Assembly: GCA_021846565.1 (NCBI GenBank)
Contig: JAJZWS010000026.1
Span: forward strand, 1-41,727
DNA from: Bacillota bacterium
Lineage (GTDB): Bacteria; Bacillota; Sulfobacillia; Sulfobacillales; JAIMBI01
Reading direction: 5' to 3'
Length of the DNA: 41,727 nucleotides
This document shows positions 9,035 through 37,099 of this stretch, piece after piece. Below the pieces are notes generated by a model. That model did no database searches. It had not been told where the DNA came from and saw nothing but the letters and a program-made list of their open reading frames with translations. Position numbers and translations under genes: made by a program. Numbering within the stretch: position 1 is the first letter of the stretch; the number at the start of each line of letters is the position of its first letter.

Positions 9035-9112
9035 GGTTCTTGGGCGGGCTGGTACGATACACTGGCACCGAAAGGTGTTGGTGCTTTGGGAACCAAGGGG
9101 GCCCCGGGGGTC

Positions 9113-10414
9113 ATGGAGGTGGAGGCGGCGGCCAACGGGTGTCGCCTCGCCATGGAATCAGGGGGCGCCGGGCACGGGGGCTCCGCGGCGGTGGCCGTCT
9201 TTGTCGGGGCCGGGTCCCGCGACGAGCCGCCGCGCGAGTGGGGAGCGGCGCATTTGCTGGAACACCTGGCGTTCAAGGGTGCCGGTGGTCTCAGCACCGC
9301 GGCATTGGCGGACCGCATGGACCGGTTAGGTGGGGATGTCAACGCTTATACAACGCGCGAAGTGACGTGCTACCACGCGCACTGCCTGGCCGAGGACTGG
9401 GAGGCCGCGTTCGAGCTGGTGTGGGCACTGGCCACGGCCCCGCACCTCGAGGCCGAAGACCTGGAGCGGGAGCGCGGGGTGGTGGAGGCCGAACTGCGCG
9501 AGGCACTGAACGATCCGGAGGACCGCGCAGAAAACACGTACCTGAAAGCATTGTGGGGAGACCACCCGGTTTCCCGCGAAGTTTTGGGATCGGCGGCCAG
9601 TCTCCGGCGGATGACGATCGAGGGACTTCGGGCCTTTCACACGCGGACCTATGCGCCCGCACGGACCTTGGTGGTGGTGGCAGGCGGCTGGGGGGGGCCG
9701 GATCCTGCGGAGGCGCGAGCTCGAATGTTGCGTCGGATGGCCGCGTGGGCACCGTCGCCCGCGCTCACCCCGCCGCCGCGGGGCGAGCCGACGGCGTTTG
9801 GCGCGGAGCGTCTGACGCGGGTAGCCGGAGACCAGGCCTATGTCGTGATGGGATGGCCGGCGGTGCCTTGGAACCACCCGGATGCGATGATTTATCGAAT
9901 GCTGGGCGTTGTGCTCGGGGGGCAGAACACCAGTCGGCTGTGGCAGCGCATCCGGGAGCAAGAGGGCCTAGCTTATCAGGTGGGGGCCGGGTACAGCGGG
10001 CACCGGGACCACGGGGACCTGTCGCTGTCCGCGGCCGTCGCCGCCGATCAGGTGGAGCGCGTGGTCACCGAGATGGCGGCCGAGTGGCGGGGGATCACCG
10101 AGCGGCCGCCGACGCCGGACGAACTGGACCGCGCGGCCACGCAACTCAAAATTGGCATTGTGTTTCAGGAGGAAAGTCCAGAAGGCCGCCTCCATCGCGT
10201 CGCGCCCTGGGTAGCAGCTGGCTGGACGGTGCCGACCGTGGCGGATCTGGTGGCCGCCGTAGACCGCGTCCGCCGGGACGACGTGCTGCGCGTGGTGGAC
10301 GAGGTGAATCGGCAGGGCATGCCGCGCATCGCACTGGCCGCGGCGGGCCCGCGGCGGGCCCTGGTGCCGGGGCTGCGGGCGCGGTTTGTGGATGAAACCG
10401 GCGTGCCGTCCTGA
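9113..10414 (+). CDS. mlpA: M16 family zinc peptidase, MlpA/YmxG type
   Basis: This 433-residue, two-domain M16 (pitrilysin-like) peptidase carries the inverted zinc motif HLLEH near residues 47-51. The downstream Glu lies in the ERERGVVEAELREALNDPED region. GGDVNAYTTREVTCYHAHCL and GGQNTSRLWQRIREQEGLAYQVGAGY match the substrate-cavity and C-terminal R/Y regions. ATG 9113 aligns best with family N-termini. An upstream in-frame TTG (9086) has a fair ribosome-binding site (GAAAGGTG) and would add nine residues. Its place after ylxY and before ymxH matches B. subtilis, where the protein is linked to regulation of secreted proteases. The exact role here is inferred. Confidence 0.93.
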   Translation: MEVEAAANGCRLAMESGGAGHGGSAAVAVFVGAGSRDEPPREWGAAHLLEHLAFKGAGGLSTAALADRMDRLGGDVNAYTTREVTCYHAHCLAEDWEAAFELVWALATAPHLEAEDLERERGVVEAELREALNDPEDRAENTYLKALWGDHPVSREVLGSAASLRRMTIEGLRAFHTRTYAPARTLVVVAGGWGGPDPAEARARMLRRMAAWAPSPALTPPPRGEPTAFGAERLTRVAGDQAYVVMGWPAVPWNHPDAMIYRMLGVVLGGQNTSRLWQRIREQEGLAYQVGAGYSGHRDHGDLSLSAAVAADQVERVVTEMAAEWRGITERPPTPDELDRAATQLKIGIVFQEESPEGRLHRVAPWVAAGWTVPTVADLVAAVDRVRRDDVLRVVDEVNRQGMPRIALAAAGPRRALVPGLRARFVDETGVPS

Positions 10415-10443: not shown

Positions 10444-10857
10444 ATGAGTGAGGGGGAGGAGTCGTTGGGCAACGGGGTGGGGGACGACCGACTGGGAATC
10501 ATCTTCGCCTGGCAGCAGCGCTTCCAGGAGGACCTGGTGGCACGGCGGGGACTGGACTTTGACGAGCGCACCTGGATTCAGAAGCAGGCGTTGGCCCTCA
10601 TCGTGGAGTTGGGTGAGGTGCTGGAAGCCGCTCAGTTCAAGTGGTGGAAAAACCCGGAGTCGTGGGACCGGGCCCATCTGCACGAAGAGCTGGTGGATGT
10701 GCTGCACTTCTACGTGGCCATGTGCCTGGCGGCCGGGATGACCGCGGAGGACCTGTTTCAAGGGTACCTGGCCAAGAACCAGGAAAACTTTCGCCGCCAG
10801 GCTGGTCAGTCCGCCAAACCCGGGTACGCCGCGCCCTTGACCGGAGCCGGCGACTAG
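10444..10857 (+). CDS. Dimeric all-alpha dUTPase / MazG-like nucleotide pyrophosphohydrolase
   Basis: This 137-residue all-alpha NTP-pyrophosphatase is closest to dimeric dUTPases (dUTPase_2), which hydrolyse dUTP to dUMP. The Mg-binding signature is visible as E-L-G-E-V-L-E-A and, after the KWWKNPESW loop, E-E-L-V-D-V-L-H-F. AGMTAEDLFQGYLAKNQENF is the typical C-terminal helix. KFKWWK-like loops between the acidic helices are characteristic of this subfamily. The start ATG 10444 follows GGGGAGGCG. It is an insertion relative to the B. subtilis mlpA-ymxH pair. Substrate choice (dUTP or another nucleotide) is inferred. Confidence 0.82.
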   Translation: MSEGEESLGNGVGDDRLGIIFAWQQRFQEDLVARRGLDFDERTWIQKQALALIVELGEVLEAAQFKWWKNPESWDRAHLHEELVDVLHFYVAMCLAAGMTAEDLFQGYLAKNQENFRRQAGQSAKPGYAAPLTGAGD

Positions 10858-29325: not shown

Positions 29326-29703
29326 TCACGCTTGACGGGGGCCGGTTCCGTGATTCCATCGGGCCATCGACGGGAGAAACAAGTTGTGCACCCGCTCATG
29401 AGGTACGCGGGGCACAATGAAGCCGTGGTGCCGTCCTTCGGTGTCCACGATGGTCACGCGGGTGGCCTGATACCGGCCCCACCACGTCAACGTGGCGTTC
29501 AACCGGGTCGCGGTGTCGCTCCCCAACTGTACGTCGGCCACCTCAGCCCATGGGAGCTGCCACGCATAGGCACAGAATAGATACCTGGACTGAAAGTGCA
29601 CGCCCTGTTCATCGATGCTGAGGGTGCCGATGCGGAGATGCTTCTGTCGTGGTCCCCCGATGATCTCCGTGGACTTGCCAACGAGGCTTCGTCCAATGGC
29701 CAT
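29326..29703 (-). CDS. Orphan small protein, possible PH-like beta-barrel
   Basis: This 125-residue protein is not recognised. It is a credible gene: ATG 29703 follows GAAAGGAG by 7 nt on the minus strand. The sequence alternates strands as expected for a soluble beta-rich domain (HLRIGTLSIDEQGVHFQSRYLFCAYAWQLPWAEVADVQLG, then RVTIVDTEGRHHGFIVP). The order 'strand, turn, strand with bulky aromatic residues, then a W-x-E-V/I segment' recalls bacterial pleckstrin-homology-like domains. It stands alone on the minus strand in a region otherwise lacking genes, between spoVR and the beta-helix/AAA+ gene. A 14-residue upstream extension (to 29745) is possible but has no ribosome-binding site. Confidence 0.6.
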   Translation of the reverse strand: MAIGRSLVGKSTEIIGGPRQKHLRIGTLSIDEQGVHFQSRYLFCAYAWQLPWAEVADVQLGSDTATRLNATLTWWGRYQATRVTIVDTEGRHHGFIVPRVPHERVHNLFLPSMARWNHGTGPRQA

Positions 29704-30061
29704 GTCCGCTCCTTTCTCAATCGTACGCGCTGCCTGCTCGATCACGGGTTACGCGGCCCACGCATCCCAACGAGGCCGAGAGGGGTTCTTAGGAATTGGC
29801 TATCGACAGAGGGCGCGTTGGCCAGACCACTTGTAGCAGATATTGGCGCGAGGCACAACAATGTTCGGTTGGAATCGGTGAGAAGGAATGTGACACAGCT
29901 TGGCGAATGCCTCCCGACGTTCGCGCGGTGGTTTTGAACCGCTTTTGGAGTAGCCAGCGGGCCTCGTCGTCAGCAAGTTGATTCTCGCGGTCGCCTCGCT
30001 TTCTGTACCAGTTCGTACGTCTCGGGTCAGGCGCCAAGGACGAGCGGAAGGCGGGAACGGA
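29704..30061. other. Gap before the beta-helix/AAA+ gene
   Basis: No gene is supportable here. An in-frame TTG at 29978 could extend the next gene by 28 residues, but those residues ([17 protein letters not shown]) do not resemble the beta-helix start. No convincing promoter was found; the mother-cell type element seen before yhbH and prkA is absent. Confidence 0.5.
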
Positions 30062-33000
30062 TTGCAAGTCAAGGTGGGGCGGGGTTTGCGCTATCCCGTC
30101 AAGTCCCTGCAGGACGCGCTCGGGCGGCCGAATGTGACAGAGATTCTCCTGACGGCCGGGACCTACGACGCTGGCGACGTGGTCATTCGGCGCCCGGTGG
30201 TGATTCGCGCTGAGCCGGGCGTCGCGTTGTCCGGCCAGCTCACCGTGGCCACGGCCTCCGCCGTGTTGATGGACTTGGCGTGGCGGGGAGGCTTGGCGCT
30301 CGCCGCCCAAGCATCGGCGACGGTGCAGCGGTGCGTCATTCGGGCCCACCCAGCCACCCCGGTGGCGGTGGCCGTGGGGGCGGGGGCGGCCCTGACGCTC
30401 GACCACAGCACCCTCGTGGGCAATTCCGGGCGGCCCACCACGCTGTGGGTCGCCGATGGCGCCCGGGTCGAGGCGGCCGGCACGCGCATTGAGGGGGCCA
30501 CTGGCAACGCGGTTCAGACAGGCGATCGGGCGCAGTGCACCTTTGACACCTGCACCCTGGTCACCGAGGCCACCCAAACGGCGACGATATGGGTGCGCGG
30601 CGTCTCGACGGCCGGCCTGACTGGCTGCGAGGTGACGTCTGGGCAGTCCAACGCGCTCTTCGCCGAAGGGGACGCGTCGCTGTCGCTCCGGTCGTGCGTC
30701 ATTGATACGCGCTCACCCGATTCGCCTGCGCTCTATGTACGCGACCGGGCCACCGTCACCATCGTGGATTCCCGACTGCATGCCGCGGGGAGCAATGTGC
30801 TGAACCTCTTGCACGGAGTGCGCGCGACCATCACCGCGAGCCAACTCACGTCAGACAGTGAGGCCTACCCCGTGCTGAGCGCCACCGGTTCCGCCGTCGC
30901 TCAAATCCACGACAGCACACTCACCTCGGCCGAGGCTGGGGTCATCTGGTGCAGTGAGCAGGGGGAGGTGTCGGTGTCCGGAGGCCGCCTAGCCAGCGAC
31001 ACCAGCCCGAAGGCGTTGGTTTCGCTGGCGGGCACGGCCCAATTTGCGGCGACCGGGGCAGAGATCTGGTCGCACAGGGGAACGGGCATGTGGGCTTATC
31101 AGCAAAGTCGCGCCACCTTAAGCCAATGCACCCTGGCAGGCGGAGGTCCAGACGCTGCGGCGGGATACTTCTGCAGCGTGGCCGACACCGCCGAGCTTCG
31201 GGTGGAGGGCGGGAGCATCGCGCTGGCCGCCGGCCCGGGCGCTTTGTACGCCAGGGGCCAGGCGCGCCTGACCGTCACCAGCGCGTCGGTCACCGGGACC
31301 AATGGCGTCGGCATGTGTGTCACGGAATCCGCCGTGGTCTCGGCGCAACGCGTGGAAGCCTCGGGCTTCCACAACGCGGTGTTTGCTGACGGTGGCACCG
31401 CCACGCTGGCAGGCTGCCGGTTGGGACCCAGCCTCGAGGGCACGCCTGTGGTCGCCGCCGACCACGGGGCCCATGTCCAGCTGACCCAGTGCACGATTGA
31501 CCAGAGTGGTGGCATGGGGATGGTGCTGCTGGGTCGGTCGTTCGGTGTGCTGGCGGAAACCACCATTAAAGGATCCAAGAGCCATGGGGTTTGGGTCGAA
31601 GCGCTGTCCGATGTGAGCTTGACCGCGTGCGTGCTGGATGGCAACGGCGGCTCGGCGGTTTTGGCCGAAGCCGAGTCGGTGGGTACCGTTACCCGCTGCA
31701 TCATTCGGGGCCACCACCAAGAACCGGTGCTGAACTTGGCCCGCGGGTCGTTTGTCCGAGCCGAGGGCAACTTTGTCAGCGCGCAGGTGGTTCCCCCGTC
31801 GGCGGCGGGTCTGCCCGCTCACCAGGCTGGAGAGCTGGCGCTGGACGCTTCTCTGTTGGAATTGGAGTCGCTGGTGGGGCTGGCTCAGGTAAAGGCGGCG
31901 GTACGGGACTTGGCGGCGCTGCTCAAGGTCGCGGCCGAGCGGCAGCAGCTGAAGTTGGGCGACACCGGCCTGCCGACGCTGCACGCCTTGTTTTTGGGAC
32001 GTCCCGGAACGGGCAAGACCACCGTCGCCCGGCTCATGGGGGGAATCTTCCACGCGTTGGGCGTGTTGCCCCAGGGCCATGTAGTGGAGGTGGATCGGTC
32101 GCGCCTCGTGGGACAGTACATTGGCGAGACGGCCCAAAAAACCCAGGGCGCCATCTCAAGCGCCATGGGCGGCGTGCTGTTTGTGGACGAGGCGTATGCC
32201 TTGATGCCCAATGCCGGCCACGGTCAGGACTTCGGTCGTGAAGCCATTGACACCCTGCTGAAGGCCATGGAGGACCATCGGCAAAAGTTTGTGGTGATTG
32301 CCGCCGGCTACGCGGACCAAATGCTGGACTTCCTACATGCCAACCCGGGACTCCGGGACCGGTTTGGCTATACGTTTACCTTTGAAGATTACACGCCCGA
32401 CGAGCTGATGCAAATTTTTGACGACGCCGCGGCCGCGGCGGGCCTGCGGGTAGACCAGGATGCCCATGCGCTGGTCACGGAAGAGTTTCAAGCCTTGTAC
32501 GCGCGACGCGACAACGCGTTTGCCAATGCCCGCCTGGTTCGAACCTGGGTGGAGCAAATAACCGTCCAGCAGGCCAGGCGCCTGGCGCGCTGGCCGGACG
32601 CCGAGCGTACCCGCGACGCCCTGATGCAGGTGGTCTTGGAGGACGTCAAACCGATGGTGCGACTGGTGAGCGGCGTCCGCGAAGCCGAGCCCCTGACCGC
32701 GATCATGGCCGATTTGGACCGCTTGGTGGGATTGGCCTCCGTCAAGGACGCGGTCAAGCAAATGGCCGCGTTGGTGGACTATCAGCAGCAGCGTCGGGCG
32801 CTGCATCTCCCCAATCTGTCTCATACCAGCTATCATATGGTGTTTCTGGGCAATCCAGGGACTGGCAAAACGACGGTGGCTCGCCTGATGGGCCGGATCT
32901 TCAAAAGCTTGGGGGTGCTGGAGCGGGGTCAGGTAGTTGAGGTGGACCGCGGCCAGCTGGTCGCGGGGTACATCGGCCAGACGGCTTTAAAGACGCAGCG

Positions 33001-33520
33001 CGCGATTGACGAGGCGCAGGGGGGGGTCTTGTTTATCGACGAGGCGTATACGTTAACGGGGGGCGGCGGACAGGATTTCGGGCGGGAAGCGGTCGAAACC
33101 TTGCTAAAGGCAATGGAAGACCGGCGCGATGCGTTCGTGGTCATCTGCGCCGGCTACCCCGAAAACATGCGCACGTTTCTGGACGCCAACCCCGGGCTGG
33201 CCTCCCGGTTCGCCCAAAGCTGGGACTTTGCCAATTACACCGTGGAGGAACTGCTGCAAATCTTTCGGGACTTGGCGGGGCACGCGCAGCTCGCCCTCAC
33301 ACCCGAACTGCAGGATGGGCTTGGTCGGCAGTTTCGCGAGCGCTTGGGGTCGGGGCCGGCGCACTTCTCCAACGGCCGGTTTGTCCGCAACGTGTATGAG
33401 AAAGTCCAAGGGCAGATGGCCTTGCGCGTCATGGGGCTGCCCGCCACCGAGCGATCGCCCGAAACCTACAGCCTGCTGACCCTGGCCGACCTTCCGGATC
33501 TGTCCACGGTTCCCGACTGA
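30062..33520 (+). CDS. Right-handed beta-helix protein fused to two CbbX/SpoVK-type AAA+ ATPase modules
   Basis: This is a 1152-residue protein. Residues about 1-575 are repeats of roughly 20-25 residues with short strands, Gly-Val/Ile turns and recurrent Cys/Thr/Ser ladders (for example [38 protein letters not shown]), typical of a right-handed parallel beta-helix. After a linker (about 575-600) come two AAA+ modules. The first has GRPGTGKTT (about 646-654), [12 protein letters not shown] and LRDRFGYTF. The second has GNPGTGKTT (about 929-937), [10 protein letters not shown] and LASRFAQSW. Both keep Walker A, Walker B and the presumed Arg finger. [12 protein letters not shown] and [12 protein letters not shown] are pore-loop-like segments of the CbbX/SpoVK/EccA family. 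No signal peptide or membrane helix is seen, so it is probably cytoplasmic. TTG 30062 follows GGAAGGCGGGA; TTG 29978 is the alternative. The function is unknown. Confidence 0.88.
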
Positions 33521-33546: not shown

Positions 33547-35361
33547 CTAGAGCGCCGCCATCGTGTCGGGCACGGACCGGTGCACCAAGTCGGCGTACAG
33601 GCCGTCCTGCGCCATGAGGTGTTGGTGGTTCCCACGCTCCACAATCTGGCCCTGATCCATGACGAAGATGAGATCCGCGTCGCGCACGGTCGATAGGCGA
33701 TGGGCAATCACGAGGGTGGTGCGACCCTCCGCAATGCGGGTCAGCCCGCGCTGCAGCACCATCTCGGTGTGGGAATCCAAGCTGGCGGTGGCCTCGTCCA
33801 GTATCAGAATTTTCGGGTTGAACGTCAGCGCCCGGGCAAACGCCAGCAGTTGGCGCTGGCCAAGCGAGAGGTTGGCCCCCTTGGCCCGGAGCCACATCCG
33901 GTAACCCCCGGGCAACTGGCGAATGAACGTGTCTGCACCCGCAACGTGCGCCGCTTCCTCGACCGCTTGGTCGGTCACGTCGGGACGGAACAGCCGGATG
34001 TTGTCCGCCACCGTGCCCGAAAAGATGTTGACCTCCTGCTGGACGATGGCGATCATGCGGTGCAGGTCATGTTGCCGATAGCGCTGGATGTCCACCCCAT
34101 CTACGGTGATGTGGCCCTGCTGCACGTCGTAGAACCGGGTCAAAAGGCCCATCAGCGTGCTTTTGCCCGCCCCGGTTTCCCCCACGAAGCCGACGAAGGT
34201 TTCTGGCGCCACGGCGAACGTCACGTCCTGCAGCACGGTCTGGTTAGGGAGGTAGCCAAACGTGACGTGTTCAAAGGCCACCGCGCCGCGTGCAGCGGCG
34301 CGCCCGTCATCGTCCCAGCGCACCGGGACGGGGTCGGCGACGTCCTTAATTTCTGGCTCCTCCAGCAGCACGCCCCCAATGCGTTCGGCCGACACCAGCG
34401 ACGACTGCAGGGTGTTCCAGTTTTGCGTAAGCGAGTTGATGGGCTGGAAAAACTGGCGAATGTACGACGTGAACGCAAATAGGACGCCAATCTCGATGCG
34501 GTGGTGGAGCACCGCCCCGCCCCCCAGCCATACCATGAGCGCCACCGACAGGTTGCCGAGCGCATCAAAGCTGCGGTTGAACAGCACAGACCACCGATAT
34601 TCCCGGATGTTGCCTCCGGTGTAGCGCCGGTTGAGTTCCGTGTGGAGCTGGAACTGCTTGGGCTCCTGATGGAAAATCTGCGTGATGCGCATGCCGCCCA
34701 AGTTTTCTGCGGTGTACCCGATGAGACGCGAGAACTGCGTTCGGGTGTACTGGTAGCTTTGGTGGAGCTTCTTGCGAAACAGGACGGAAATCAGGACGAT
34801 GACGGGAATCACCAGGAAACTCAGGAGCGCGAGCTGCCAGTTCAGCGCCAGCATGGCGCCCATCACCAGCAGAAGCATCATGCCGTCCTGAATGACGCTC
34901 AAGAGAAACTGCGTGAAAAACATGCTCACGTTGGTGGTGTCGCTGGACACATTGGTGATGAGCCGCCCGGTGGCGTGGGTGTCGAAGAACCGCATGGCCA
35001 GCGACTCCACGTGGCTGAAGAGGTCCTGGCGCATGTTGCGCACGATGCGCTGGCCAATCCACTGCAGCCGGCGGTTTTGCACCAAGTTGGCCCCGAGCCC
35101 CACGAGCGTGACGCCCAGGTACAAGAGGGCCAGCATCAAAATGGGTTCCAATGCGGGGTGCGGGACCAGCAGGTCCTTGTCGATGACTAGCTGCACCAGC
35201 CAGGGCTGGAGCACCTGGGCGCCCACGTAAAGCGCCGCCAAGCCCACCACCACCAGAAAGCCCCTGAGATGGGGCTGTGCGTATCCCCCGAGGCGGGTGA
35301 GCGCCGTTCGGGAGTCTGTCATTCGGATTTCGCGCCCTTCGTCCCAATCGGTCTCAGGCAT
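33547..35361 (-). CDS. ABC exporter subunit, BmrD/YheH type (active ATP site)
   Basis: This 604-residue half-transporter has six membrane helices (about 30-330) and a C-terminal ATPase domain. Walker A is GETGAGKST, the signature is LSLGQRQLLAFARAL and Walker B is ILILDEATASLDS, with the catalytic Glu. The LS-x-GQRQL form is typical of the YheH/BmrD side of heterodimeric exporters. ATG 35361 follows GGAGAGGAG and overlaps the end of the partner gene by 8 nt, so the two are made together. It converges on the beta-helix/AAA+ gene with only 26 nt between them. Drugs, lipids or peptides are possible substrates; the sequence does not say which. Confidence 0.92.
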   Translation of the reverse strand: MPETDWDEGREIRMTDSRTALTRLGGYAQPHLRGFLVVVGLAALYVGAQVLQPWLVQLVIDKDLLVPHPALEPILMLALLYLGVTLVGLGANLVQNRRLQWIGQRIVRNMRQDLFSHVESLAMRFFDTHATGRLITNVSSDTTNVSMFFTQFLLSVIQDGMMLLLVMGAMLALNWQLALLSFLVIPVIVLISVLFRKKLHQSYQYTRTQFSRLIGYTAENLGGMRITQIFHQEPKQFQLHTELNRRYTGGNIREYRWSVLFNRSFDALGNLSVALMVWLGGGAVLHHRIEIGVLFAFTSYIRQFFQPINSLTQNWNTLQSSLVSAERIGGVLLEEPEIKDVADPVPVRWDDDGRAAARGAVAFEHVTFGYLPNQTVLQDVTFAVAPETFVGFVGETGAGKSTLMGLLTRFYDVQQGHITVDGVDIQRYRQHDLHRMIAIVQQEVNIFSGTVADNIRLFRPDVTDQAVEEAAHVAGADTFIRQLPGGYRMWLRAKGANLSLGQRQLLAFARALTFNPKILILDEATASLDSHTEMVLQRGLTRIAEGRTTLVIAHRLSTVRDADLIFVMDQGQIVERGNHQHLMAQDGLYADLVHRSVPDTMAAL

Positions 35362-37099
35362 GCACCCCCGTCTCCTCTCCCATCTGAATGCGGAACAGTT
35401 CGGCGTACAAGCCCCCGGCGCGCACCAGTGCCTCGTGCGTGCCGCGCTCCACCACCGCCCCATGGTCCAGCACGATGATGTGGTCGGCGTCGCGGAGTGC
35501 CGACAGCCGGTGGGCCGCAATAATCGTGGTTTTCCGACCCCGTCCCCGGCGCAGCACCCGCAAGATGTCGGTCTCAGTGCGGGTATCCACCGCAGACAAG
35601 CTGTCATCCAGGATCAAGAGCTTGGCATCGCTCTTGATGAGGGCCCGCGCGATGGCGGTTCGCTGGCGTTGGCCGCCGGACAGGGTGACGCCGCGCTCGC
35701 CAATCTCCGTGTGGATCCCGTCGGGCATCTCGCGGATGGCGTCCAGGATGTGCGACTGGGAGGCGGCCCGCTCCACGGCCTCCGGCACCACCAGGGGCAT
35801 CGAGAACGCGATGTTCTCCCCAATGGTCGTGGAGAAGAGAAACCCATCCTGGGGCACATACGCGATAAGCTCGCGCAGGTCCTCCAGCTTAACGTCCCGG
35901 ATGTCGGTGCCGTCCAGCGCAATGGTGCCCCGGGGGGGATCGTAGTCGCGCAGGATGAGATTCAGCAGCGTGGTTTTTCCGGCACCAGTATGCCCCACGA
36001 TGCCCAGCACGGATCCGCGGGGAATGTGCACGGTCGCGTCGTCCAGCGCCGGGGCGTCGGCGCCCGGATACCGATATGTTAGGTGCGTGATGGTCACCTC
36101 GCCGCGCCAGTCGCGGTGCACAGGCTCGGCCGGATCCACAATGGAAGGCTCGACCAACAGCAGTACTTGGAGCCGAACCAGCGACGCGGACGCGTTTTGG
36201 AAGGTGTTGATGACACGCCCAAATTGCATGAGGGGCTGCACCATCATGGCCAAGTAGGCGGAAAACGCGACAAAGCCGCCCAGGGTGATCACGTGGTGGA
36301 TGACGTCGTAGCCCCCCAGCAGGAGGCCGATCGTGAACGCGATGCCGCTCAGCAGGGGCAGGATTGCCTGAAAGAGCGTGTTGAGCTCCACGAGCTTCAT
36401 CTGCCGCGCCAGCACTTCGTTGGCCAGATCAGCGAAACGGGTGTTCTCCGTGTCCTCGTTCGAGGTGGCTTTGATGAGGCGGATGGCGAGAAAGCTTTCC
36501 TCCGCCCGCTCCGCCATGTCCGAGAGCGCTTCTTGCACCCGTCGCGAGCGCATGCGCACGCGCGGCCCCATGGCCACGATGACCGCGGGAATGAGGAGCA
36601 GGGGCAGGAGGCTCAGGACCGTTAGCTCCACGTTGATGGTGCCCAGCGTCATGTAAAGCGTGGCGGCAAACAGAAATACCGCCTGTGACATTTGGTTAAT
36701 CCCCTGGGAGAGCGCCTGGCGGACGCGGGTGACGTCCGTGAGCGTGTGGTTTAGCAAATCGCCCACGCTGTGCTGCTGGAAGTAGTGCGACGACAGCCGC
36801 TCCCAGTGGCGAAACAGCACTTGGCGCACGTCGTACTCCATCGTGCGGGCCAGCTGGCCCATGAGCATCTGGCCCAGACCAAACGCCACGACATAGCACG
36901 CCGCGAAAAACGCCAACTCCAGCGCATAGTGTTCCACCGCGTGCGGGGTCGCACCCGCCTTCAGGCGGTTGATAAACTGCCCCAACACATGTGGGATCTG
37001 CACCTGCAAAAATTCGGCCCCGCCGACGGCGAGCACGGCCAGGGCGTAGGCCCACTTGTGGCTCCCGAGGAAAGAGCGCATCAGATCCGGGGGCTTCAA
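35354..37099 (-). CDS. ABC exporter subunit, BmrC/YheI type (degenerate ATP site)
   Basis: This 581-residue half-transporter has six membrane helices and then an ATPase domain with Walker A GHTGAGKTT (about residues 368-376), signature LSGGQRQRTAIARAL and Walker B LLILDDSLSAVD. The catalytic Glu after Walker B is Asp, as in YheI/BmrC and TM287-type subunits, where one of the two ATP sites is inactive. With its downstream partner it forms a heterodimeric exporter. In B. subtilis BmrCD is induced by antibiotics through translation-coupled attenuation; no such leader is evident here. The start TTG 37099 follows GGAAGAGGTG by 8 nt; ATG 37081 is the alternative. Confidence 0.92.
   Translation of the reverse strand: MKPPDLMRSFLGSHKWAYALAVLAVGGAEFLQVQIPHVLGQFINRLKAGATPHAVEHYALELAFFAACYVVAFGLGQMLMGQLARTMEYDVRQVLFRHWERLSSHYFQQHSVGDLLNHTLTDVTRVRQALSQGINQMSQAVFLFAATLYMTLGTINVELTVLSLLPLLLIPAVIVAMGPRVRMRSRRVQEALSDMAERAEESFLAIRLIKATSNEDTENTRFADLANEVLARQMKLVELNTLFQAILPLLSGIAFTIGLLLGGYDVIHHVITLGGFVAFSAYLAMMVQPLMQFGRVINTFQNASASLVRLQVLLLVEPSIVDPAEPVHRDWRGEVTITHLTYRYPGADAPALDDATVHIPRGSVLGIVGHTGAGKTTLLNLILRDYDPPRGTIALDGTDIRDVKLEDLRELIAYVPQDGFLFSTTIGENIAFSMPLVVPEAVERAASQSHILDAIREMPDGIHTEIGERGVTLSGGQRQRTAIARALIKSDAKLLILDDSLSAVDTRTETDILRVLRRGRGRKTTIIAAHRLSALRDADHIIVLDHGAVVERGTHEALVRAGGLYAELFRIQMGEETGVHA

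Follow-up and report, generated by a model that had tools for sequence, protein, structure and literature searches.

AAA+ ATPases of the SpoVK/CbbX/EccA clade are marked by a GY signature and by an asparagine before the arginine finger, and are described as chaperones with narrow targets whose varied N-terminal domains likely recruit the substrate (Delerue et al. 2023, PMC10659427). EccA, encoded with the mycobacterial type VII secretion system (T7SS), usually combines one AAA domain with a TPR N-terminal domain (PMC10659427 and general knowledge); it has been hypothesised to act on EspG/PPE complexes, and the secretion defect seen without EccA5 is mild. SpoVK consists of a single AAA domain with a short N-terminal domain, and CbbX of a single AAA domain without a beta-helix, tied to red-type Rubisco. 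The protein described here belongs to the same clade as all three, sharing with EccA the cytoplasmic location and a putative recruiting domain at the N terminus, and with CbbX the pore loop YIGxT. However, it carries two AAA modules in tandem and a long beta-helix. One phrase of Delerue et al. mentions a beta-helix in EccA-type members; it was the sole mention of such a fusion in our literature search, which returned no functional study, in agreement with the preliminary description, which knew of no characterised function. A Streptomyces pan-proteome paper from 2026 refers to beta-helix repeat proteins without mentioning the fusion.

The gene occupies positions 30062–33520 (+) of the window, that is, the whole 41,727-nucleotide stretch of Bacillota DNA analysed here. 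Inspection of the open reading frames revealed one intact, conserved gene with a product of 1152 amino acids. The frame is uninterrupted (mechanical bounds 29978–33520), and its start was placed at a TTG codon at 30062, a position supported by GGAAGGCGG, which is conserved and precedes the start codon (also TTG in genome G002, GTG in G003). As the preliminary description had proposed, both AAA+ halves are thus encoded in one gene with the beta-helix and not in separate genes. Full-length orthologues are present in all three congeners (93, 80 and 66% identity) and in G006 (50%), and a further orthologue in G102 (47%) lies at a contig edge. The gene is under purifying selection, with dN/dS of 0.26–0.36 in the helix and 0.10–0.11 in the AAA part, a rate about 2.5–3.4 times higher in the helix than in the motor. 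Given this contrast, and the 65–71% motor identity against 16–44% helix identity in comparisons with G006 and G102, the helix evolves faster. Such quick divergence would be expected if the helix contacts a client that itself changes, and is consistent with a recruiting role.

The right-handed beta-helix domain spans 30062–31786 (+), residues 1–575. Pfam Beta_helix (PF13229) matches the protein at 1.5e-24, and an AlphaFold2 model of residues 1–595, built from three sequences only, has a mean pLDDT of 87.0 and a pTM of 0.85. In the model, the rod makes about 23 coils, which average about 23.5 residues each; a short helix caps it at residues 16–21, and it ends near residue 575. Foldseek and VIA-align (Z up to 34.8) match it to alginate lyases, pertactin, Vag8, tailspikes and epimerases in the PDB; these matches to the predicted structure settle the fold as a right-handed beta-helix and say nothing on function. 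Predicted structure, fold search and Pfam agree with the N-terminal beta-helix claimed at the outset. A beta-helix rises about 4.8 Å per coil, so that the rod, by its modelled coil count, would be about 11 nm long.

The helix could itself be the active part, binding or processing a carbohydrate or envelope polymer, with the AAA part assembling or exporting it together with ABC exporters. Its fold is like that of polysaccharide lyases, epimerases and tailspikes, and a pair of MsbA-like ABC exporters (33547–37099, −) adjoins the fusion gene in the window, between it and prkA, with orthologues at the same place in G002 and G003. Moreover, beta-helix-only paralogues in these two genomes stand beside two ABC-exporter-like genes (G002:C42, L046 4204–9309; G003:C92, L047 7277–12343). 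However, no signal peptide is visible, as had been noted before; the exporter pair has no orthologue in the congener G001 (best match 34%); and an informal comparison found few invariant residues in the helix, none resembling a catalytic cluster. We regard an active helix as very unlikely. The ABC exporters were dropped as constant partners because G001 lacks the orthologue. The helix of G004, which is 54% identical to that of G006 over 581 residues, has a clean end and no AAA part. The stand-alone helices in G004, G002 and G003 thus identify the helix as a separable module, and since it is also found alone in the family, its role may go beyond recruitment. The G004 gene (L049 2454–4352, −) stops exactly at the would-be AAA start and is followed after about 1 kb by an IS-type transposase gene. 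The stand-alone copy in the window's own genome (G000:C32, L045) contains an in-frame TGA.

The remainder of the protein comprises AAA+ module 1 (31850–32665, +; residues 597–868), with Walker A GRPGTGKT and pore loop LVGQYIGET, and AAA+ module 2 (32705–33499, +; residues 882–1146), with Walker A GNPGTGKT and pore loop LVAGYIGQT. Pfam AAA (PF00004, 5.5e-36) and AAA_lid_6 (PF17866, 3e-22) each match two stretches, and Walker A, Walker B, the YIG pore loop, sensor-1 GY, the NPGLxxRF arginine finger and the FxNxR sensor-2 are intact in both modules, in agreement with the clade definition of Delerue et al. The full-length AlphaFold model is poor (pLDDT 58.6, three sequences only), and the AAA assignment therefore rests on the profiles and motifs, which bear out the earlier reading of two complete SpoVK/CbbX/EccA-type modules. 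By sequence, the best PDB relatives are CbbX and EccA1. A CbbX-type Rubisco activase with an extra domain, to which the first of these relatives might point, is nevertheless highly improbable: the CbbX profile score falls below the cut-off (434.5 against 459.25), and matches to the Rubisco large subunit in the window's own genome are weak only (1.6e-9), with no form I Rubisco found; strong matches are confined to more distant relatives. PADLOC returned only weak AAA matches (IetA and others), and no defence system is claimed.

The NCBIfam SpoVK profile TIGR02881 scores the whole protein above its cut-off, although with two stretches summed, and the window and two congeners have yhbH, spoVR and prkA as neighbours of the fusion gene. 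On the strength of this neighbourhood the preliminary description had suggested a mother-cell or stress role. A more specific version would be a mother-cell sporulation factor that resembles SpoVK and acts together with YhbH, SpoVR and PrkA. The wider comparison does not support such a role. The same genome encodes a separate, single-AAA SpoVK-like protein, to which the fusion motor is 47% identical, downstream of mutS-mutL-miaA (names read from gene order and sequence, not from profile results), in an order resembling miaA-hfq-spoVK of Cytobacillus. In the AAA tree, this protein groups with Cytobacillus SpoVK, whereas the fusion protein is placed outside the SpoVK group. The window and G001 are collinear over most of the length compared, yet between spoVR and prkA G001 has neither the fusion gene nor the ABC-exporter pair. 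Its fusion gene lies about 20 kb away from that region, between orthologues of the window's 9086–10414 and 10444–10857, two genes that only about 30 bp separate in the window itself. The yhbH-spoVR-prkA cluster is no constant context for the fusion gene, and most of the sampled Bacillota genomes lack the architecture, which does occur in Streptomyces ESX clusters; we consider a sporulation factor unlikely. What does accompany the fusion gene is a small divergent gene (29329–29706, −; about 125 amino acids), which adjoins it in four of four congeners and keeps this adjacency in G001 despite the differing location. It gives meaningful scores in this genus only, is absent from G006 and matches nothing in Pfam, the PDB or PHROG; by sequence, its product possibly resembles a bacterial PH domain.

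A search of plasmid records gave 23 entries with at least 80% coverage of the fusion protein query. Ten loci with Streptomyces beta-helix/tandem-AAA+ genes were inspected, a non-random choice of mostly top-ranked matches in which several plasmids share a replicon type, and ESX/type VII genes flank nine of them. All nine contain eccC, usually together with a mycosin-type S8 peptidase, eccB, eccD and WXG100, and the tenth has no ESX genes within 8 kb. No other EccA is annotated in the stretches inspected, for which the plasmid gene table is incomplete. The Streptomyces proteins (e.g. WP_153182292.1 and WP_326813255.1) have the same order of domains in one chain, a right-handed beta-helix followed by two AAA+ modules, and a length of about 1100 residues, with the same motor motifs; the window protein fits this architecture. 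However, identity with it is only 44–50% in the motor and about 14–24% in the helix, and the Streptomyces forms sit in T7SS clusters, whereas no T7SS was found in the genome of the window. The mention of similar actinobacterial fusions in the preliminary description is supported, but its statement that none of CbbX, EccA and SpoVK carries a long beta-helix was wrong, because of these Streptomyces proteins and of the mention by Delerue et al. (PMC10659427). The design is known, and the Bacillota form is a lineage-specific variant of it.

The tree of AAA modules separates both modules of the Bacillota forms from both modules of the Streptomyces-type forms, and places G098, a genome of the window's class, with the latter. 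Constraining Bacillota and Streptomyces forms to one clade was not rejected (p-AU 0.196), and the sequences are compatible with a single fusion followed by duplications as well as with two fusion events. Since the tree does not unite the two, function may not carry over from one to the other. In a sample of 398 Bacillota genomes, five other than the window's own gave a strong tandem-AAA match, which in each case was limited to the AAA portion of the query. Inside the class, the family of the window as well as G102 and G098 have long matches that extend into the beta-helix. Phage records contain AAA-only relatives, none reaching 80% of the query, and SpoVK-type AAA+ ATPases are encoded by Bacillus phage G (gp596, H45) and Brevibacillus phage Emery (H49). 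Other arrangements were also seen: Streptomyces beta-helix proteins with one AAA+ module (L070 9182–11950; L102 6126–8810), a tandem-AAA+ protein without a beta-helix match next to WXG100-type genes in a Chloroflexota metagenome-assembled genome (L008 5122–9573), and three SpoVK-type AAA+ modules per chain in two genomes of the same class (L055 5872–9696, −; L090 3252–7082, +), with no beta-helix match in L055, the one of the two on which Pfam was run.

The Streptomyces counterparts in ESX clusters would also allow the protein to be a surviving EccA, whose T7SS has diverged or is not represented in the draft genome. The score against the EccA profile TIGR03922 is below the cut-off (420.4 against 466.65 bits). 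WXG100 is absent from the window's own genome and three congeners, and with the EssC/EccC profiles the only protein detected in the own genome, in G001 and in G003 is the ordinary FtsK with its single ATPase; G002 gives nothing, and the other carriers tested yield single-ATPase frames only. Because the own genome is a draft that is 95.7% complete, this absence is strong but not final, and a surviving EccA appears fairly unlikely. We favour, as a reasonably probable reading, an AAA+ remodelling chaperone similar to EccA and CbbX that works in the cytoplasm of a bacterium with no detectable T7SS and recruits its client through the fast-evolving beta-helix. As the same design lies inside Streptomyces secretion clusters, the protein is probably, by analogy, a dedicated chaperone of the known family.

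Such a chaperone would assemble as a hexamer, with its AAA modules stacked as two rings and its six beta-helix rods recruiting one dedicated client. ATP-driven pore loops would then pull on a tail or loop of the client and release or rearrange it, much as CbbX acts on Rubisco and as EccA is hypothesised to act on EspG/PPE complexes. Streptomyces proteins of this architecture probably take the role of EccA in ESX secretion; the Bacillota genus, with no T7SS found, would have a different client. The small divergent gene, which appears to have been co-transferred, would be the best candidate partner. More tentatively, and with the odds somewhat against it, the genes for the beta-helix/AAA+ motor and for the small, possibly PH-like protein may constitute a unit in which an EccA-type remodeller operates without a T7SS, its rods guiding an extended client unrelated to the known targets of the clade. 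Both the N-terminal domain of EccA and the role of EccA in secretion are unsettled. A beta-helix at the place expected for EccA in Streptomyces ESX clusters, and again in relatives without a detectable T7SS, suggests a general remodeller in which the recruiting domain has been swapped, and the Bacillota form, with its single consistently linked neighbour, offers a small, testable pair.
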